Below, one piece after another: positions 13,372-33,934 of a DNA stretch of 64,000 bases; the first letter of the stretch is position 1, and each line of letters starts with the position of its first letter. The DNA lies in NCBI GenBank assembly GCA_022616275.1, contig JAKEFB010000031.1, positions 1 to 64,000 of the forward strand. The letters run 5' to 3'. Below the pieces are notes generated by a model that saw only the letters and a list, made by a program, of their open reading frames with translations, did not search any database and was not told the DNA's origin. The DNA comes from Chloroflexota bacterium (GTDB lineage: Bacteria; Chloroflexota; Anaerolineae; Promineifilales; Promineifilaceae). The translations under genes and the position numbers were made by a program.

Positions 13372-13445
13372 CGGGGTGTAGCTCAGCTTGGAAGAGCGCT
13401 GCGTTCGGGTCGCAGAGGCCATGGGTTCAAATCCCGTCACCCCGA
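13372..13445 (+). tRNA. tRNA-Pro, anticodon CGG
   Basis: A 74-base cloverleaf. The acceptor arm is CGGGGTG paired with CACCCCG, with discriminator A. The D arm is GCTC/GAGC. The anticodon stem is CTGCG/CGCAG with loop TTCGGGT, giving anticodon CGG for codon CCG. The T arm contains TTCAAAT. CCA is not encoded. G at position 37 (GGG in the loop) fits proline tRNAs. Confidence 0.96.
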
Positions 13446-15332: not shown

Positions 15333-15950
15333 ATGCCTTACCAAAGCACAGACCAGACACGCCAGAAGAAGGACGCCAAGCGCACGGCCATGATGCAGGC
15401 AGCGGTGCGCGTTTTTGCCGAGAAAGGCTATCATGCCGCCACGATTCGGGATGTCGTCAACGCGGCCGGCGTGGCCATCGGCACCTTTTACTTTTACTTT
15501 CCTGACAAAGAGACGTTGTTCGTTTACCTGTATGAAGAGACGGCCGACTTTCTGCTACAGGCTATTCAACAGGCTGTCACCGGCCGGGCGACGCTCCCCA
15601 AGCAATTTGCCGCCGGGCTGCAATCCTACGTGAATATTGCCCTCTACGAACCGGCGGTGGTCCAGTTACTATTGGTGGGCGGGGTGGGCGCTGTGCCGGC
15701 GTTGGTGGAACGGCAGGCCACCTTTCGTGAGCGACTGACGGCCATCTGGCAGCGGCCGTTGGACACAGCCCTGGACAAAAATCAAATTATTCCTCAAAAT
15801 ACACGACGGACGGCCGAAGCGCTGGCCGGCGCGTTTGACGAAATCGTGCTCAATCTACTCAATCTGCCTGAACCTGAAATGGAAGCGGACGCCGCCTTGC
15901 AGGACATGATCCACTTTGCCTTGCGGGCGGTGGCTTACACCGGGCACTGA
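15333..15950 (+). CDS. TetR family transcription regulator
   Basis: About 205 residues. The N-terminal helix-turn-helix is AVRVFAEKGYHAATIRDVVNAAGVAIGTFYFYFPDKETLFVYL (residues ~25-65 overall). An all-helical ligand-binding domain follows. The signal is unknown. The start is taken as ATG 15333; TTG 15327 is two codons earlier and neither has a good ribosome site. It ends 4 bases before the giant histidine kinase, so it probably controls that gene and the divergent MocR gene. Confidence 0.9.
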   Translation: MPYQSTDQTRQKKDAKRTAMMQAAVRVFAEKGYHAATIRDVVNAAGVAIGTFYFYFPDKETLFVYLYEETADFLLQAIQQAVTGRATLPKQFAAGLQSYVNIALYEPAVVQLLLVGGVGAVPALVERQATFRERLTAIWQRPLDTALDKNQIIPQNTRRTAEALAGAFDEIVLNLLNLPEPEMEADAALQDMIHFALRAVAYTGH

Positions 15951-15954
15951 AAAG

Positions 15955-18900
15955 ATGCAGGAAAAACAAACCCAAGACCAGATTATTGCGGCGCTACGGC
16001 GGGAAAATGCCCGGCTACTGGAAGCCGAGCGCCTCTACCGCCAGGAAGCTGAGACTCTACGCCAGGCGACTACAGCCCTAATCACGGCCGTGGACCTGCG
16101 ACAGGTGCTGGACGGCATCCTGCTCCACCTGGAGGGCGTGGTTCCCTACGACAGCGCCTGTATTTTCCTGTTGAATGGCAGCGGGCAACGAGTCGTTGCC
16201 GGCCGGGGCTTCGCCGATTTGAGCCAGGTGGTCGGCCGGGAATACGCCACCGACAATAATCTCTCCCGCGAGCTGCAGAGCACCCAACGACCCATTTATA
16301 TTACCGATGTCCAGGCCGATGAGCGCTTTGAAGGGTGGGGAGGGACCGATTATGTGCGCGGCTGGATGGTTGTGCCCCTCGTGGTTCGGGACCAGCTTAT
16401 TGGCTGCCTGACGTTAGATAGCCGGCAGGTAGGGACCTACGGCCCCACCCAGGCCACCCTGGCCCAGGCCTTTGCCAACCAGGCGGCCGTGGCCATTGAA
16501 AACGCCCGATTGTTTGAGACTGAGCGCCGGCAGCGGGCCCGTGCCGAAACATTGCAAAAGGTGGGCAGCCTGATCGCCTCCTCATTGGATCTGGACGAAG
16601 TCTTGAATAATATTGCCCAACAGGTGCTGGCGCTGCTCGACGCGCCGGCCTGCAACATCATGCTTCTGGAGTCGCCGGATACCCTCGCCTGGCGGGTGAG
16701 TATCGGCGTACCGGATGAGTGGTCACTGCTCAACCGGCGCCGCCTGGGCCAGGGCCTGTCTGGTTGGGTGGCTGCCCGGCGCCAGCCACTGGCCGTCTAC
16801 GAAATGGCCGAAGACCAGCGGGCCAGTAATCCCACCCTGGTCCGTAAGCACAATTTCCGCTCTTTCCTGGGTGTGCCCATGGAAATTAAAGGGGGGCTGG
16901 TGGGCGTGCTCAATATTTACACCCGCACTCCCCGCCACTTTAGTGATGAAGAGGTAGAGCTGATGGTGGCTTTTGCCGGCCAGGCGGCTATCGCTGTAGA
17001 GAATGCTCGCCTCTTTGCCCAGGTGCAGGCCCAGACCATTACCCTGGAAGCCAAGGTCATGGCCCGGACGACCGAGTTGATTTCCGCCAATGAGCAGTTG
17101 CGGGAGGAAGTGGCCGAGCGCCAGCGGATGCAGGAGGCGCTGCAAACGTATGCCACAAACCTGGAGCGCCGCGCTGTCCAGTTGCAGGTGGCGGCCGAGG
17201 TGGCCCGTGATGCAACCGTGGCCCGCAACTTGGACGATCTGCTGAAACGGGCTGTCAGCCTGGTCTGTGAACGGTTCGGTTTTTACTACGCCGGCATTTT
17301 CCTGGTGGACGACGCCGGCGAATATGTGGTGCTGCAGGCGGCGACAGGGGAAGCCGGCCGGCAAATGCTGGATCGGGGCCACAAGCTAAAAGTGGGTGAG
17401 GCCGGCATTGTCGGCCACGTAGCCGGCCGTGGTCAGCCACGGGTAGCCCTGGATGTGGTGGCAGACGCCGTTCACCTGAAGAACCCGCTGCTGCCGGAGA
17501 CCCGTTCCGAAATGGCCCTGCCGCTGCGGGTGGGAGAATGGGTGATTGGCGTACTGGACGTGCAAAGTGACGAGCCGGCCGCTTTTGACGATGACGACGT
17601 GGCTGTGCTGCAACTGATGGCCGACCAGTTGGCCGTGGCCATTGAGAGCATGCGCCTGCTGGCCAAGACCCGCCAACGTGTCCAGGAACTGGCTGGCCTG
17701 CACGAGATTGCCCAGGCCTTTGGCAACCTGACCGATGTGCGCGAAGCCTACAGCACCCTGGCCGAGCGAATGGGCCACCTGGTGGACGCGCCGATGTGTG
17801 TGGTGGCCCTGTTCAACCCGGCAACGGGCGAGATCGAGGCCCAGGCTCCTGGTTATGGCGTTAGCGATGAGATTGTGGTCGCGGCGCGCTATCAGGCCCG
17901 CGACCTGCAGGACGTGTGGCACTTCCGCAAGCATGGCACGTTTATGGCCAACAGCCGGGCTGAAATTCCACGATATTTTGACCGCTTCCTGGACCAATTC
18001 GGCCTCGAAGCAATACTGGTCAGCCCGATGTTGGTGGAGGGGCGGCTGGTAGGTGTAGTGGTAGTGGCCAACAAGCCGGGTGGTTTTAGCCAGGATGACG
18101 CCCGGCTGCTGGGCGTCTTTGCCAGCCAGGCCGGGGTGGTGATTGAAAACGCTCGCCTTTTTGCCGCTACCCGCCGCCAACTGGAGGAGCTGAGCGCCCT
18201 GCACGCCGTGACCGCGGCCGGAGCCACGGCCGCCAGCGAAGAAACTCTGATTGAGCGAGCCACCGAGTTGATTGGCGAAACGCTCTGCCCAAACAACTTT
18301 GGCATCCTGCTCCTGGACGAGGCGGCGGGTATGCTGCGGGTAACGCCTCCCTATTACGCCAGCGCCCCATTGGCGCTTCAGGAAGTTCCCTTGGGGCATG
18401 GCGTAACCGGCCGGGTAGCAGCCGAAGGCCGGCCGCTCCGGGTTGCAGACGTGACTCAGGTCGAGGCCTATATTGCCGGCGATTCGCAAACGCGCTCGGA
18501 GCTGTGCGTACCCCTCAAGATAGGCGAGCGAGTCATTGGCGTCATCAACCTCGAGAACTGGCGACCGAACGCCTTCAGTGAAGCTGACGAGCGCTTCCTG
18601 GCCACAATGTCCGGCCAGTTGGCTACGGCTATTGAGAAATTACGCCTGCTGGAAGCTGAACGCCGCCGGTCGCAGCAACTGGCCCTATTGAACGAGACAG
18701 CCCGGGAAATGGCCGGGGCCATTCACCTCTCCCACCTGTGCCAGGTGGTCGCCGAACGGCTGCAGAGTGCGCTGCGCTACTACAATGTAGAGATTTACAC
18801 CGTAGACCAGGGGACAGCCCGGGTCGTGATGCAGGCCATTGCCGGGGCTGGGACACACCTGGAGGGTTCGCAGCCCGGCCTCTACTGGCAGGCATTGGGT

Positions 18901-21432
18901 CAGGGGCTGATCGGCCGGGTGGCGGTGACGGGCGAGCGGCTTCTGGTTAACGACATCAACCAGAACCCTGATTTTTACGAAGCCTCTGGTCTGGCCATTT
19001 GCTCGGAACTGGTACTGCCGTTGCGTAGCGGTCAGCAGATTATTGGCGTCCTGAACGTAGACAGCGACCGGCCCAATGCCTTTGACGATGGGGACGTAGC
19101 TATCTTAACTATCGTGGCCGACCGGCTGGCGGTGGCCCTGGAACGGGTTCGCCTGTTTGAAGCCACCCAGCGGCAGGTGGAGGAACTGACGGTGCTGCAT
19201 AGCGTCGCCATTGCCGTTGCTGAGGCGACTCATGTGGATAGCCTCATTGAGCGGGTTACCGAAATAATCGGCAAGACGCTGTATCCAGACATCTTTGGTG
19301 TATTGTTGGTGGACTGGACGGCTGGCATCATTTACGCCCATCCCTCCTACCGGAAACGCACCGGCCCGCTGCCCGTAACCTCAGTGCCCATTGGTGTGGG
19401 CATCACCGGCAGCGTGGCCGCTGACGGCCTGCCCCGCCGGGTGTTGGACGTATCCCAGGAGCCAGCTTACTTTGCCGTTGACCCGCAAACGCGCTGCGAG
19501 TTGTGCGTACCGATCAAGATTGGCGAACAGGTTTTTGGCGTCGTCAATGCCGAAAGTTTCCGGCCGGCAGCCTTTAGCGCAGCCGACCAGCGGCTGCTGA
19601 CGACCATTGCCGGCCAACTGGCCACAGCTATCGAAAAATTGCAGTTGTTTGAGACTGAACGCCAGCGAGCAACGCGGCAGCGTAACCTGGCCGAAACGGC
19701 CGGAGCTATGCTGGCCGCCCTGGATATGGACATGCTCTGGCCGGCCATTACTACCACCGCCCGGCAAACGTTGGAAGCCGACCGGGTAGCCGTCTATGCC
19801 TACGAGGCGGCCAGAGATCGCCTCTCCTGCCCTTTTGCCGAAGGACTCTCGGCCGAGTACGTAGCCGAAATTAACCGCCGCTTCCATGACGCCCCCGGCA
19901 GCCGCCTGTTGCAAAACAGCCAGCCGATTGTCATCAACGACGTCGAGGCCAATCCGGCGACTGCGCCGTTGCGGGAATTGATGCTGCGGGAGGGGATCCA
20001 GGCTTACACCGTCTTCCCTCTCACCGGCCCGGAAGCGCCCCTGGGAGCGCTGGTTGTTTACCGCAACAGCCCGCGCCCCTTTACGGCCGAAGACCTGACC
20101 ACCGGCCAGACGCTGGCCCACATTGTGGCCGTGGCTTTGCAAAACTCCCGGCTGTTCGAGGAATTGACGGAGACGCTGGTCCGTGAACAGCGGCTGAATG
20201 AAGTGGCCAGGGCCATTAGCGGCGCTCTTGATTTGCCGACCATTCTGCCGGCTATCGTTCGCCTGGCGGTCGAGCTGGTGGGTGCCGACGCCGGGGCGCT
20301 CTCGCTGATCGAACCAGACGGAGAAACCACCAGCCATCCTTACATTTTCAACCTGCCTGAAGCATTGAAAGAAAGGCGAGAATCGCGAGGCGACAGCGTG
20401 GCCTGGTCTATTATCGAAAGCGGTGAATCACTACTGCTGGCCGATTACGCCAACCATCCCCGTGCGGCGCCGGCGTGGATCAAGGTGGGCGTGCGCGAAT
20501 TTATCGGCGTGCCAGTCATTGCCGGCGAGATGTCGCTGGGCGCTCTCGGGCTGTTTAGCCTGAGCGGTGATCGTTGCTTTAGCCAGCGAGACCTGGCCCT
20601 GGCCGAATCGGTCGGCCGGCAGGCCGGAGTGGCTATCCAAAACGCTCGCCTCTACGCCGAAGCGCGGCAGCGGGCCGAGCAACTGGCCAACGCTCTGGCC
20701 CGGCAGGAAGAGTTAGACCGGCTAAAGAGCGACTTTATCCAGAATGTCTCCCACGAGCTACGAACACCCCTCTCCATCGTTCACGGCTATGTTTCTCTAC
20801 TAACGGTAGGCGAGTTTGGCCCGTTGCAGCCGGACCAGGAGGAAGCCCTATCAGTCGTCACCCGGCGCGTTCAAATGTTGACCAAGCTGGTAGACAACTT
20901 TACCGCTATCTTAATGGCTGAGGCGAACGTTGGCCCCCGGGAACAGGTGGACCTGGTGGAGCTGGTCCGGATGGTGCTGGAGGACTTTCAAGTTTCCGCC
21001 CGCCAGGCAGGGATTACCCTGGCGGGCGAACTGGCCCTCACACCACCCGTCCTGGGCGATGGCGAGCAACTACGGCGAGTGCTGGATAACCTCATCGGCA
21101 ACGCCCTGAAGTTTACCCCGGCCGGTGGCCAGATCACCGTTCATGTCCGGCCGGAGGAGGAATGGGTCCTCTTGGAAGTGTCCGACACGGGAATCGGCAT
21201 TCCGGCCGAGCAGCTCGACCGCATCTTTGAGCGTTTTTACCAGGTGGACAGCAGCATGACCCGGCGCTACGGGGGGACCGGCCTGGGGCTGGCTTTGGTG
21301 AAGGAGATCGTCGCGGCGCACAACGGCCGGCTGCAAGTAAAAAGCGCCGCCGGGCAGGGGAGCGTGTTTCGCATCTGGCTTCAACCTGCCGAAGGTTGGC
21401 GATATTCATCGCCTGAACCTTCGGCGGGTTGA
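15955..21432 (+). CDS. giant cytoplasmic histidine kinase with nine GAF domains
   Basis: About 1825 residues with no membrane segment. I count nine GAF domains, at approximately 42-185, 200-355, 412-565, 578-735, 742-897, 905-1063, 1070-1228, 1241-1398 and 1408-1565. Most end in the helix pattern AVAIENARLF or a close variant that links to the next. The transmitter follows: H-box FIQNVSHELRTPLS with H1600, N-box NLIGNALKF, G1 DTGIGIP and G2 GGTGLGLAL. It should autophosphorylate in response to several small ligands. No response regulator is adjacent; stand-alone receivers lie at 35791 and 37833. ATG 15955 is the first Met after the TetR stop. The last residues (PSAG-stop) come from a palindromic element. 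Confidence 0.93.
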   Translation: MQEKQTQDQIIAALRRENARLLEAERLYRQEAETLRQATTALITAVDLRQVLDGILLHLEGVVPYDSACIFLLNGSGQRVVAGRGFADLSQVVGREYATDNNLSRELQSTQRPIYITDVQADERFEGWGGTDYVRGWMVVPLVVRDQLIGCLTLDSRQVGTYGPTQATLAQAFANQAAVAIENARLFETERRQRARAETLQKVGSLIASSLDLDEVLNNIAQQVLALLDAPACNIMLLESPDTLAWRVSIGVPDEWSLLNRRRLGQGLSGWVAARRQPLAVYEMAEDQRASNPTLVRKHNFRSFLGVPMEIKGGLVGVLNIYTRTPRHFSDEEVELMVAFAGQAAIAVENARLFAQVQAQTITLEAKVMARTTELISANEQLREEVAERQRMQEALQTYATNLERRAVQLQVAAEVARDATVARNLDDLLKRAVSLVCERFGFYYAGIFLVDDAGEYVVLQAATGEAGRQMLDRGHKLKVGEAGIVGHVAGRGQPRVALDVVADAVHLKNPLLPETRSEMALPLRVGEWVIGVLDVQSDEPAAFDDDDVAVLQLMADQLAVAIESMRLLAKTRQRVQELAGLHEIAQAFGNLTDVREAYSTLAERMGHLVDAPMCVVALFNPATGEIEAQAPGYGVSDEIVVAARYQARDLQDVWHFRKHGTFMANSRAEIPRYFDRFLDQFGLEAILVSPMLVEGRLVGVVVVANKPGGFSQDDARLLGVFASQAGVVIENARLFAATRRQLEELSALHAVTAAGATAASEETLIERATELIGETLCPNNFGILLLDEAAGMLRVTPPYYASAPLALQEVPLGHGVTGRVAAEGRPLRVADVTQVEAYIAGDSQTRSELCVPLKIGERVIGVINLENWRPNAFSEADERFLATMSGQLATAIEKLRLLEAERRRSQQLALLNETAREMAGAIHLSHLCQVVAERLQSALRYYNVEIYTVDQGTARVVMQAIAGAGTHLEGSQPGLYWQALGQGLIGRVAVTGERLLVNDINQNPDFYEASGLAICSELVLPLRSGQQIIGVLNVDSDRPNAFDDGDVAILTIVADRLAVALERVRLFEATQRQVEELTVLHSVAIAVAEATHVDSLIERVTEIIGKTLYPDIFGVLLVDWTAGIIYAHPSYRKRTGPLPVTSVPIGVGITGSVAADGLPRRVLDVSQEPAYFAVDPQTRCELCVPIKIGEQVFGVVNAESFRPAAFSAADQRLLTTIAGQLATAIEKLQLFETERQRATRQRNLAETAGAMLAALDMDMLWPAITTTARQTLEADRVAVYAYEAARDRLSCPFAEGLSAEYVAEINRRFHDAPGSRLLQNSQPIVINDVEANPATAPLRELMLREGIQAYTVFPLTGPEAPLGALVVYRNSPRPFTAEDLTTGQTLAHIVAVALQNSRLFEELTETLVREQRLNEVARAISGALDLPTILPAIVRLAVELVGADAGALSLIEPDGETTSHPYIFNLPEALKERRESRGDSVAWSIIESGESLLLADYANHPRAAPAWIKVGVREFIGVPVIAGEMSLGALGLFSLSGDRCFSQRDLALAESVGRQAGVAIQNARLYAEARQRAEQLANALARQEELDRLKSDFIQNVSHELRTPLSIVHGYVSLLTVGEFGPLQPDQEEALSVVTRRVQMLTKLVDNFTAILMAEANVGPREQVDLVELVRMVLEDFQVSARQAGITLAGELALTPPVLGDGEQLRRVLDNLIGNALKFTPAGGQITVHVRPEEEWVLLEVSDTGIGIPAEQLDRIFERFYQVDSSMTRRYGGTGLGLALVKEIVAAHNGRLQVKSAAGQGSVFRIWLQPAEGWRYSSPEPSAG

Positions 21433-28970: not shown

Positions 28971-31900
28971 TTACACTTTCCACAGGCTTAAGGTTACTTC
29001 ATGGTCGTCAACCTGGATGGCCTGGGAATAGGCGCCCTGTTCAGGCTGGCCGGCCGCCAGGCTGGTAGCCAGGGTTTCCTGTTGGATATAGCCGGCAAAG
29101 TTTTGCAGAGCCGCAGCTACATCGCCGCTGGCTTCATAAGTGAGGGCGATGCGGTCGTCCAGGGCCAGGCCGGCGTCCTTGCGCATGGTGTTGATGGCCC
29201 GCACCAGGTCACGGGCGTGGCCTTCTTGGATCAGCTCAGGGGTAAGGGTGGTATCCACAGCCACGGTGATCCCTTTTTCGCTGGCCACAGCCAGGCCGCC
29301 TCGCGATTCCGTCTGCACCAGGACCTCGTCGGCGTTGAGTTCGACCGTCTGGCCGTCTACGTCCAGCCTGAGCGAGCGGCCGCTTTGCAGCGTTCTGGCC
29401 GCCTCGGCCGGGTCCAGCCCGGCCAGGGCCGCCCGAACTTTGGGGAAGAGGCTGCCGAACTTTGGCCCCAGCGCCCGGTTATTGGGCAGCAGCTTGTAAT
29501 TGACCAGCTCCCCGACCTCGGAGACGATTTCGACGTCCTTGACGTTAATCTCTTCCTCAAGCACGTCAATTAACTCCAGCAGGTCGTTCTGCGCTTGCTG
29601 GCTGCCGACGTGAACACGGGCCCTGGCCAATGGCTGGCGCAGCTTGAAATCGGCCGCGCTGCGGGCTGAGCGGCCGAGACTGGCCACGTTGATCGCCAGA
29701 CGCATCTTATCCAGGAGGGCCTGATCCGGGCTGGCCGGGTCGGCCGTGGGCCAGTTGTCGTGGTGGATGCTGAGCGGGGCTTCCGGATTGACGCTGTGGA
29801 CCAGGTTCTGGTACATAGCCTCGGTGGTGAAGGGGATGAACGGCGCCAGCAGCCTGGCCAGCTCGACCAGAACGTGGTAGAGCGTGGCATAGGCGGCCGC
29901 TTTGTCGGCGTCGGTTTCGCTTTTCCAGAAGCGGCGGCGTGAGCGGCGCACGTACCAGTTGGACAGGTCGTCCAGCAACGCCTCCAGGGCGGCGGTCGCT
30001 TTGTCGGCGGTAAAGACCTCCAGGTTTTGGGTAACTTCCAACGTGGTTTCGTCCAGGCGGGTCAGGATCCAGCGGTCCAGTTGGGCGTGAGCGGCGATGG
30101 GCGACCGGTAGCGCGCGGCCAACTCGCTGCTCGCCAACCCCTGTTCGCCGGCGTCCGGCTGCCAGTTGTCCAGGTTGGCGTAAGTAACCAGGAAGGAGTA
30201 GACGTTCCACAAGGGAATAAGAAAGCGCCGCCGGGTCTCATTAGCCAGGTTATAGCCAAAGAGCAAATTTTGCTCCGGCTTGTGATTGGCAAAGAGCCAG
30301 CGCATCGTGTCGGCGCCCATGTTGTCGGCCCCTTCGTTGAACTCGATGGCGTTACCCCATGATTTGTGCATGGCCCGGCCGTCCTCGCCCAACAACAGGG
30401 CGTAGCCGAACAGGTTTTTGAACGGCGGCCGGTTCGTCAAGACCGTACTCTGGGCCAGCAGGCTATAGAACCAGTTGCGGAACTGGCCGGGGAAGCTTTC
30501 GGTAACAAAGTCGGCCGGGAACCACTTTTCCCAGTATTCCGGGTGGTCGCGATAGTGTAGCGTGCTGTAGGCGACGATGCCGGCGTCCAGCCAGGGATTG
30601 CCGACGTCGGGGATGCGAGAGGCCCGGCCGCCGCACTCAGGACAGGCGATCTTGACGGCATCTATATAGGGGCGGTGGGGAGAATGGCCCTGGAATTCTT
30701 CCCAGCCCTCAATGGCCCGTTCTTCCAGCTCGTACTCGCTGCCGACGACGTGGAAGTGGCCGCAGGCCGGGTCTTCGCAGACCCAGATAGGCAGGGCCAG
30801 GCCGTAGTAGCGCTTCTTGCTGATCATCCAGTCGTGCATATTGCGCAGCCAGTCCATTTCCCGGTCGTAGCCAAAGCCGGGGAACCAGTTGATTTCATCT
30901 ACTACGTCCATGATCTGGTAGCGCAGGCTGCGGGCCTTTTCTTCCGGGGTCACTGCCTCGCGCGGCTTGTCGTAGAGCGGGCCGGTGTCAATGAACCACT
31001 CGTCTACCAGCCGGTAGACCAGCTCTTCGCCGCAGCGCCAGCAGTGGGGGTAACGGTGGGTGTAGCGCTGCCGGCGGTAAAAGAGGCCCTCGTGCCGCAG
31101 ATTTTCCAGAATGTCCTCGGCCACGCCGTAGACGGAGCGGCCGGTTAGCCAGTCGAAGCCCTCGACGTAGACACCGTTCTCGTCCAGAGGGGCGATCACC
31201 GGCAGATAATTTTCCCGGCTAAGCTGGAAGTCCTCCCCACCGCAGCCAGGGGCGATGTGGACGACGCCGGTCCCTTCGGCGGCGCTCACTTCCTCCCAGG
31301 GGATGACGACGTGCCGGTAGCCCATCTCCTCGAAGGCCCGCCTGGCGGCCGGCAGCTTGTCAAAGGGGCCGTCGTAGAGCCAGCCAACCATCTCTTCGCC
31401 CTGCAACTCTTCCAGCACTTCATAATCGCCGGTAAGAGTGTTGGCCACGGCCTCTTTGGCCAGGTAGTACCTCCAGCCGTCGTCCTTTTGCAGCACCTTG
31501 ACGTAGGTCAGGTCAGGGCCAACGGCCGCAGCCACGTTGCTGGTCAGCGTCCAGGGCGTGGTCGTCCAGACGAGCAGCGCTTCTTTGTCCCGGCCGACGA
31601 GGGGGAACTTGAGAAAGACGGCATCGTGGGTCACTTCAAAGTAGCCCTCGGTGACGATTTCGTGCTGGCTGATGCCGGTGCCGCAACGGGCGCACCAGGG
31701 CATGACGTCGTGCCCCTTGTAAATCCAGCCCTTTTCAAAGCATTTCTGCAAAAAGCCCCAGATCTGGTAATTATTCTCGTCGCTGAAGGTGAAGTAGGAG
31801 CCGCCAACCTCCGGCCGGCCCAGGCGGCCGACGACCGCTTCGGCCGTAGCCGTGATGGCTCCTTTTGGGCCGTAGTAGGTAACGGTCTGCTGCGGGTCTT

Positions 31901-32381
31901 GTTCCAGTTGGTCGCGCAGACGGCGCAGCCCCTCCGGGTCGTTCCATTCCATCCAGTAACCCAGGCGCATAGATTGATCGGTCTGGACAGCGGCGTACTT
32001 GAGCACCTGCAGCTTGCAGGCATTGGTAAAATTGGCCAGGCCGTACTTTTCGATCTCCCGCTTGCTGTTAAAGCCCAGGACTTTTTCCACGTTGACCTCA
32101 ACCCACAACCCCTGGCAGTCAAAGCCGTTTTGCCAGCGCTGGTTGTAGCCCTGCATAGCCTTGAAACGCTGGTAGAGGTCTTTGTAGGTGCGGCCCCAGG
32201 CGTGGTGGACGCCCATCGGGTTGTTGGCGGTAATAGGACCGTCCAGGAAGCTCCACTGCTTGTCACTGTTGGCCCGCAATTCCTGGAGCTGGCGAAAAGC
32301 ATCAGTCGTTTGCCAGAAGGCCAGGATGGCCCGCTCCAGTTTGACGAAATCTACTTTATTGGGTACGTCCTTAAATGCCAT
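28971..32381 (-). CDS. ileS: isoleucyl-tRNA synthetase with swapped HIGH motif (GVHH)
   Basis: About 1136 residues. IleRS charges tRNA-Ile in the cytoplasm. ATG 32381 has AGGAG 7 bases upstream. The class I signature that is normally HIGH reads GVHH (residues 57-60, in NNPMGVHHAWG). The KMSKS loop reads AMHKSWGN (M671-N676). Two Cys pairs lie around WVCEDPACGHF and IACPECGG. The C-terminus lacks the zinc finger of classic bacterial IleRS and has LIQEGHARDLVRAINTMRKDAGL, as in type-2 (eukaryote-like) enzymes. The swapped motif is, from memory, reported in type-2 enzymes with extreme mupirocin resistance. It is controlled by the T-box at 34040-34350 through an operon with alaX. Confidence 0.95.
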   Translation of the reverse strand: MAFKDVPNKVDFVKLERAILAFWQTTDAFRQLQELRANSDKQWSFLDGPITANNPMGVHHAWGRTYKDLYQRFKAMQGYNQRWQNGFDCQGLWVEVNVEKVLGFNSKREIEKYGLANFTNACKLQVLKYAAVQTDQSMRLGYWMEWNDPEGLRRLRDQLEQDPQQTVTYYGPKGAITATAEAVVGRLGRPEVGGSYFTFSDENNYQIWGFLQKCFEKGWIYKGHDVMPWCARCGTGISQHEIVTEGYFEVTHDAVFLKFPLVGRDKEALLVWTTTPWTLTSNVAAAVGPDLTYVKVLQKDDGWRYYLAKEAVANTLTGDYEVLEELQGEEMVGWLYDGPFDKLPAARRAFEEMGYRHVVIPWEEVSAAEGTGVVHIAPGCGGEDFQLSRENYLPVIAPLDENGVYVEGFDWLTGRSVYGVAEDILENLRHEGLFYRRQRYTHRYPHCWRCGEELVYRLVDEWFIDTGPLYDKPREAVTPEEKARSLRYQIMDVVDEINWFPGFGYDREMDWLRNMHDWMISKKRYYGLALPIWVCEDPACGHFHVVGSEYELEERAIEGWEEFQGHSPHRPYIDAVKIACPECGGRASRIPDVGNPWLDAGIVAYSTLHYRDHPEYWEKWFPADFVTESFPGQFRNWFYSLLAQSTVLTNRPPFKNLFGYALLLGEDGRAMHKSWGNAIEFNEGADNMGADTMRWLFANHKPEQNLLFGYNLANETRRRFLIPLWNVYSFLVTYANLDNWQPDAGEQGLASSELAARYRSPIAAHAQLDRWILTRLDETTLEVTQNLEVFTADKATAALEALLDDLSNWYVRRSRRRFWKSETDADKAAAYATLYHVLVELARLLAPFIPFTTEAMYQNLVHSVNPEAPLSIHHDNWPTADPASPDQALLDKMRLAINVASLGRSARSAADFKLRQPLARARVHVGSQQAQNDLLELIDVLEEEINVKDVEIVSEVGELVNYKLLPNNRALGPKFGSLFPKVRAALAGLDPAEAARTLQSGRSLRLDVDGQTVELNADEVLVQTESRGGLAVASEKGITVAVDTTLTPELIQEGHARDLVRAINTMRKDAGLALDDRIALTYEASGDVAAALQNFAGYIQQETLATSLAAGQPEQGAYSQAIQVDDHEVTLSLWKV

Positions 32382-32397
32382 TGTCTTCTCTCCTGTA

Positions 32398-33223: not shown

Positions 33224-33934
33224 TTACTCATCCAATTCGATGTAGATTCGCTTGTTAATCTTGCCTTTGCTCAGATAGTTGGCGATCCGCATCCGGCCGA
33301 CTTCGCGGGTGTTGGCTACGTGGGTGCCGCCGTCGGCTTGCAGGTCCAGGCCGACGATCTCCACCGTCCGCACTTGCTGGATGCCGGCCGGCAGCAGGTT
33401 GATCTTGGTCCGGATCAGGTCGGGAATCTCGAAGGCCTTGTCCCGGGGCAGAATATCCACCACCACCGGCCGGGCAGCGACTACTTCCTGGTTGACGGCC
33501 GCCTCGATCTCGGCTACCAGTTCCTGGCGCATCGTCTCAAATTCAAAGTCCATCCGGCCGGCCAGCGGTTCCATGTTGCCGCCGGTAACCGAAGCCTGGT
33601 AATCACGCCAGATGACGCCACAGAGGATGTGCATGGCAGTGTGGGTGCGCATCAACTTGTAGCGCCGGTCCCAGTCCAGCCGGCCGGTCACGACCGTGCC
33701 CACGGCCGGCGGGTTGCCGTCCAGCAGGTGGACGAGCTGGCCCTCGACGCGCTTGAGACCCGTCACCGGCCACCTCTGGCTGCCGGCCGAGAGCGTGCCC
33801 AGGTCATTCGGCTGCCCACCTCCACCCGGGTAAAACGCCGTCTGTTCTAGCACCACGCTGCCCTCCGCCAATCCTGTCACCGTCGCCTCAAACTCCCGCA
33901 AATAAGAATCGGTTGCATACAATAAATTTGTCAT
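33224..33934 (-). CDS. alanyl-tRNA editing protein, AlaX family
   Basis: 236 residues. AlaX proteins hydrolyse Ser-tRNA-Ala (or Gly-tRNA-Ala) made by mistake. The N-terminal barrel has TAFYPGGGGQPNDLG. The editing core has the HxxxH motif HTAMH, and the second metal motif reads DGGTH where AlaRS editing domains have CGGTH, so one usual Cys ligand is Asp. GAGGT lies ~6 bases before ATG. It is the first gene after an isoleucine T-box, an unexpected partner for ileS in one transcript. The protein is full length and the other motifs are intact. Confidence 0.9.
   Translation of the reverse strand: MTNLLYATDSYLREFEATVTGLAEGSVVLEQTAFYPGGGGQPNDLGTLSAGSQRWPVTGLKRVEGQLVHLLDGNPPAVGTVVTGRLDWDRRYKLMRTHTAMHILCGVIWRDYQASVTGGNMEPLAGRMDFEFETMRQELVAEIEAAVNQEVVAARPVVVDILPRDKAFEIPDLIRTKINLLPAGIQQVRTVEIVGLDLQADGGTHVANTREVGRMRIANYLSKGKINKRIYIELDE

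Follow-up and report, generated by a model that had tools for sequence, protein, structure and literature searches.

A remodeled Chloroflexota isoleucyl-tRNA synthetase clade adjoining type 2, with a swapped HIGH motif, an altered KMSKS loop and predicted mupirocin insensitivity

HIGH and KMSKS are the textbook signatures of class I synthetases. In type-2 isoleucyl-tRNA synthetases (IleRS2), the link between exchange of the first and third positions of HIGH (G/AXHH, with Gly or Ala first and His third) and mupirocin hyper-resistance is already known: according to the accessible text of PMC10485003, the swap lifts the mupirocin Ki up to 1000-fold, the ratios in its Table 1 give shifts of 175 to 823-fold on motif exchange, and the ALHH enzyme of Deinococcus has a Ki of 6.6 mM, against 0.2-1.1 uM in Table 1 for HXGH type-2 enzymes. 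The tree of 379 IleRS described in that text contains 86 G/AXHH IleRS2 and none among IleRS1. Structures of P. megaterium IleRS2 reported there have the third His replacing the first, with a modelled clash with mupirocin, and in P. megaterium IleRS1 the mupirocin carboxylate contacts the backbone NH of a KMSKS-loop lysine, whose IleRS2 counterpart is given as Lys593; in chain numbering we find Lys593 to be the second loop lysine. The same text singles out a minor clade with GXHH in its ancestor, and ascribes the weakness of an early branch to the scarcity of Planctomycetota and Chloroflexi sequences. As far as their available text goes, PMC4861432 names HYPFE as a distinguishing motif of the eukaryote-like (type-2) IleRS group, and PMC10450160 reports energetic coupling between HVGH and KMSKS in Pyrococcus LeuRS.

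The window analyzed here, a 64,000-nucleotide stretch of a Chloroflexota genome, encodes an IleRS that scores 661.5 bits against the curated TIGR00392 ileS model (cut-off 621.4), which identifies it as an IleRS of any type, and it is the only ileS match over the cut-off in its 98%-complete, fully scored genome. The start was taken as the ATG at 32379-32381; the mechanical open reading frame begins 33 codons further upstream. Pfam recognizes the class I core, the anticodon-binding domain and DUF5915 (PF19302), the last of which we take to be the marker of the type-2 IleRS C-terminal domain. The bacterial C-terminal zinc finger is absent, as originally predicted: the last cysteine is residue 583 of 1136, so that no C-terminal CxxC pair can be present, whereas in the E. 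coli row, which includes an upstream extension and spans 952 aa, cysteines still occur late, at 915, 918, 935 and 938 in row numbering. An Rfam search at gathering thresholds gave no regulatory RNA upstream of ileS, its sole match being tRNA-Pro at 13372-13445. An AlaX-like protein (33224-33934; alanyl-tRNA synthetase second additional domain), likely a mischarged-tRNA deacylase, is encoded near ileS on the same strand. Elsewhere in the window is a sensor histidine kinase of 1838 aa with nine GAF-domain matches (15916-21432).

Table. Features of the ileS locus, in window positions, with residue numbers of the encoded enzyme.
Feature	Position	Strand	Residues and basis
ileS, isoleucyl-tRNA synthetase, 1136 aa	28971..32381 (including stop codon)	-	TIGR00392 above cut-off
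AGGAG, likely ribosome-binding site	32390..32394	-	8 bases before ATG; inferred from sequence reading
GVHH, swapped class I HIGH motif	32202..32213	-	aa 57-60; direct translation
GFDCQGLW, replacing GWDTHGLP/GWDCHGLP	32103..32126	-	aa 86-93; QGL in 148/211 rows
45-residue insert in CP1	31800..31934	-	aa 150-194; in 96/148 group rows, not in 52
TTTPWTL, threonine block, presumably of the editing site	31545..31565	-	aa 273-279; alignment and motif search
GTGVVHIAPGCGGED, second block, presumably also editing	31230..31274	-	aa 370-384; alignment
HYRDH, at the place of HYPFE in most comparison enzymes	30543..30557	-	aa 609-613
FPGQFRNWF, at the place of DQTRGWF in most comparison enzymes	30468..30494	-	aa 630-638
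AMHKS, altered KMSKS loop	30360..30374	-	aa 670-674
C-terminal DUF5915 (PF19302), without zinc finger	28977..29567	-	aa 939-1135; 177.6 bits

Direct translation places GVHH within NNPMGVHHAWG, exactly as the original prediction read it, with positions 1 and 3 of HIGH exchanged in the G/AXHH manner; the sequence then continues HHAWGRTYKD, not NKIL. The predicted loop AMHKSWGN was likewise confirmed and turned out to mark a whole clade. It has neither the Lys at position 1 nor the Ser at position 3 of a canonical KMSKS; the first lysine is absent and the second is kept (Lys673; Arg in six rows of the alignment). Nearby, Gln replaces His and Trp replaces Pro in the GWDTHGLP block, and just before GVHH Met stands in place of Pro. 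The GWDTHGLP and DQTRGWF blocks presumably lie by the amino-acid pocket; the Asp of the GWD block and both editing blocks are invariant in a 19-row alignment. No Pfam family was named for the CP1 insert.

A comparison of 211 IleRS rows indicated that these features travel together. The group was defined by the QGL block alone, avoiding circularity with the HIGH and KMSKS motifs: blocks of the GFD[C/G/A]QGL type occur in 148 rows, GWD[TC]HGLPV in 58 others, and QGL in none outside the 148. G/AXHH is present in 147 of the 148 group rows, the exception being L037, which was counted in the group with an unreadable N-terminus, so the GVHH of the window is no accident of a single genome. This count is to be read with the source of the rows in mind, since one source was the best 80 of 576 relatives found with search patterns that included M[GA]VHH[AG]WG, which makes GXHH in those 80 loci partly a matter of selection; these patterns did not cover the loop. 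Position 3 of the loop is His in 147/148 group rows and Ser in 59/59 comparison rows, while at position 1 the group has P, E, A, Q, I, G, D, L or S, with Lys in 0/148. HYPFE occurs in 0/148 group rows against 47/59 comparison rows, and DQTRGWF in 0/148 against 54/59. In the catalytic half, 20 columns separate the group from the 59 comparison rows, each side being nearly fixed for a residue of its own (thresholds 93% and 85%); in GWDTHGLP, for instance, the group has Gln at the place of His and Trp at that of Pro.

When both motifs were tallied in the 209 rows that have them in place, 138 combined G/AXHH with xMHK and six G/AXHH with xMHR, 34 had G/AXHH with KMSK, 24 had HXGH with KMSK, and seven fell elsewhere: G/AXHH with EFHKS (two), G/AXHH with LMSKS (clade row L047, GVHH), HVGT with KMSK, HXGH with KLSKR, HLGT with EMHKS (Asgard) and an unreadable HIGH with xMHK (one each). 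HIGH is unreadable in L053 (masked) and L068 (cut). The 34 G/AXHH rows with intact KMSK come from Actinomycetota, one Bacillota record and Chloroflexota and also keep GWD[TC]HGLP; the GXHH swap can therefore do without the other changes. Twelve loci were removed as copies before comparison, some species still appear twice across collections (L052 and L175, for example, look alike), and the Chloroflexota rows read are the 30 best plus one or two per family from 301 sampled genomes. The comparison group contains no Deinococcus, Planctomycetota or eukaryotic rows, Streptomyces is not in the tree, and Thermus is represented by one PDB chain.

Phylogenetic trees were built without the insert and motif columns. 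In a tree of 61 rows and 636 columns, the window enzyme belongs to a 31-row clade (support 100/100) on a long branch (0.81), and the sister group of 27 rows (100/100) holds Thermus thermophilus, Bacillota, Actinomycetota, canonical Asgard enzymes and other Chloroflexota. A quick tree of 102 rows concurs (64-row clade, SH-aLRT 100) and places L164, an insert-bearing row, among insert-less ones. The outgroup is a single long E. coli IleRS1 row, and the root is not firm. The type-2 assignment of the original prediction thus holds in part: the enzyme is far from E. coli IleRS1 and adjoins IleRS2, but its clade branches as sister to the group of Thermus, Bacillota, Actinomycetota and Asgard rows rather than within it, and the enzyme lacks HYPFE. 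A type-1 placement, the outcome that the prediction had set against itself, did not occur. As far as the accessible text describes it, the sparsely sampled early branch of the 2023 Brkic tree probably corresponds to this clade. The Asgard enzyme with HLGT and EMHKS (L222, genome G341) sits on a branch separate from the window clade, and its sister, L221, has HVGT with KMSKS.

In Chloroflexota, a DNA pattern for the clade loop, which misses MHRS with CGN arginine and the FHKS and LMSKS forms, was found in 135/301 sampled genomes against 1/301 for the reversed control. By family, seven of the loop sites belong to CysRS, including one whose genome carries an IleRS site too, and visual matching assigned the rest to IleRS places; removal of the CysRS-only genomes leaves 129/301 with the clade loop in an IleRS. 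In 59 of 60 clade-bearing Chloroflexota genomes, taken from the pattern-positive ones at a completeness of at least 90%, the clade enzyme is the sole IleRS found (in eight of the 60, a few first-look candidates were unscored); in G153, the one exception, a GIHH/KMSKS enzyme is present as well. Similarly, 17 of 18 genomes of named loci have one IleRS over the cut-off, and Ktedonospora has two, the second being GVHH/KMSKS. Among the best 80 of the 576 relatives, named holders include Ardenticatenales, Anaerolineae and the isolates Thermogemmatispora carboxidivorans and Ktedonospora formicarum, together with metagenome-assembled genomes called Thorarchaeota, Bathyarchaeota, Brockarchaeota and Poribacteria. 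Given the lack of a second ileS match in the window genome and the single copy in nearly all clade genomes checked, the window IleRS is a housekeeping enzyme, which would make any insensitivity to mupirocin a built-in trait.

Three of 99 Asgard-phylum genomes (G301, G408 and G400) carry the clade enzyme, and in 11 of the 99 no IleRS match better than 1e-50 was found, so that IleRS may be missing there. On the Thorarchaeota chromosome G301, the Chloroflexota-type IleRS alone exceeds the ileS cut-off, and its neighbors include archaeal EF-2, a tetraether lipid synthase and an Arf-family GTPase. For G301, this archaeal neighborhood led us to reject contamination of the bin, and it makes acquisition of the sole IleRS by transfer from a Chloroflexota-like donor likely.

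The reading in which we place high confidence is that the window encodes a housekeeping Chloroflexota IleRS from a deep clade adjoining type 2, with a remodeled active site (GXHH, GFDCQGLW, GQFRNWF and xMHKS) and a predicted insensitivity to mupirocin. By analogy with the P. megaterium structures, His59, in third place of GVHH, would assume the role in activation of the first His, which is missing here, and its side chain would clash with mupirocin, so that the enzyme should be highly insensitive; the neighboring changes around GVHH and in GWDTHGLP render the transfer of that geometry to the window enzyme uncertain. The loop may function with Lys673 as its only lysine and dispense with the first.

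The alternative that survives best, though we still hold it to be the lesser possibility, is an ordinary GXHH type-2 IleRS of the same kind as the Deinococcus and Streptomyces enzymes, in which xMHKS and the other changes are lineage drift of no consequence for function. The C-terminal domain and missing zinc finger fit type 2, loop position 1 varies freely in the clade, and the comparison rows with GXHH and intact KMSK indicate that the swap can exist independently of the altered loop. Set against drift are the 20 contrasting, nearly fixed columns of the catalytic half and the absence of both HYPFE and DQTRGWF from every one of the 148 group rows. A bolder proposal, which we regard as tentative, is that of a third IleRS lineage that split early from type 2 and rebuilt its whole ATP site, moving the catalytic His within HIGH, giving up the first KMSKS lysine, gaining a new loop His, replacing the pocket blocks and performing activation with different side chains; from Chloroflexota it would then have reached some archaea of Asgard and Bathyarchaeota type, at least one of which has it as sole IleRS.

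It is rather unlikely that the loop His compensates for the His lost or moved in HIGH, in a trade between the two signatures. A link between HIGH and KMSKS is plausible, by analogy, because of the coupling described for Pyrococcus LeuRS in the available text of PMC10450160. In readable IleRS rows, xMHKS indeed occurs only with a non-canonical HIGH (G/AXHH, or HLGT in Asgard L222), and of six Chloroflexota CysRS with an xMHKS loop (L225, L226, L227, L228, L229 and L323), five of them picked for that loop, five have HXGN or TIGN for HIGH. However, the sixth has HLGH, 34 G/AXHH IleRS keep KMSK, and clade row L047 pairs GVHH with LMSKS. Moreover, among 95 Chloroflexota CysRS loci (5 chosen for xMHKS and 90 others, 30 of these search-picked and 60 hand-picked), of which 88 were readable, HXGN is common with KMSK (12/88), KMAK (8) and other loops, and strict coupling of loop and HIGH across families was rejected. 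The present IleRS and CysRS data do not show that one signature change forced the other. Other Chloroflexota CysRS loops read KMAHS, KMSHS or RMAKS, and the window genome itself has two CysRS-family genes over the cut-off, at C309:146-1501 and C308:5390-6580, the pair reading HIGN with RMAKS (L267) and HLGH with KMSKS (L268).

An acquired mupirocin-resistance gene beside a normal IleRS is very improbable. Such an origin might be suggested by the tie between GXHH and hyper-resistance in the accessible text of PMC10485003, by the second IleRS of Ktedonospora and G153, and by archaeal holders that point to transfer between lineages. We rejected it on the strength of the 59/60 genomes in which the clade enzyme is the sole IleRS found; the 17/18 genomes of named loci and the 129/301 Chloroflexota with the clade loop in an IleRS likewise speak against it, and none of the 246 plasmid records with a match reaches 60% identity. 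Least probable of all is a synthetase of changed amino-acid or tRNA specificity that is not the cell's IleRS, since the alterations in the GWDTHGLP and DQTRGWF blocks, presumably pocket blocks, are opposed by the lack of any other ileS match over the cut-off in a 98%-complete genome and by the invariant GWD Asp and editing blocks of the 19-row alignment.

This large natural clade, altered in HIGH, KMSKS and other blocks, lends itself to comparing how the signatures share work, and can serve as a test of whether GXHH always entails mupirocin insensitivity. In addition, the HYPFE rule for type 2 overlooks a large Chloroflexota branch, and the sole IleRS of an Asgard archaeon can be of the Chloroflexota type.

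A literature search found no assay or mupirocin affinity for any enzyme of the window clade. In the openly available text searched, there was no mention of MHKS together with aminoacyl-tRNA synthetase (Brkic Fig. 2b, which according to its legend aligns both motifs, may show the loop change) or of isoleucyl-tRNA synthetase alongside horizontal gene transfer and Thorarchaeota, and the one paper that brings together IleRS, Chloroflexi and aminoacyl-tRNA synthetase apparently concerns a lysyl-tRNA synthetase T box. The swap-mupirocin link given in the original prediction is published for IleRS2 in the accessible text of PMC10485003, for assayed enzymes that apparently include no member of the window clade; what goes beyond that text is the window branch with its loop, block changes, 45-aa insert and archaeal members.

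Compared with known systems, the window enzyme shares with E. coli-type IleRS1 the reaction and the TTTPWTL editing block; the E. coli row has HIGH, KMSKS, NKIL and the late cysteine pairs, and the window enzyme has none of these. Against the MupA and MupB models it scores 604.9 and 561.7 bits, far below the cut-off of 1900 bits, and mupA plasmids among the matches listed are about 31% identical to it. The minor IleRS2 clade (node 747), or Planctomycetota-Chloroflexi early branch, of PMC10485003, with an ancestral GXHH and few, weakly supported sequences, is probably the window clade; the accessible text on it does not discuss the loop and block changes, the 45-aa insert or archaeal members, and Table 1 apparently includes no member. 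Lastly, the G/AXHH type-2 enzymes of Deinococcus radiodurans (ALHH) and Streptomyces griseus, as described in the same accessible text, resemble the window enzyme in the swapped HIGH positions 1 and 3, the type-2 C-terminal domain and the housekeeping role. In contrast to the window enzyme, the G/AXHH comparison rows (Deinococcus and Streptomyces are not in the tree) keep KMSK and GWD[TC]HGLP, with HYPFE in most comparison rows. The assayed G/AXHH type-2 enzymes have mupirocin Ki values in the mM range, and the window enzyme is predicted to be highly insensitive as well.
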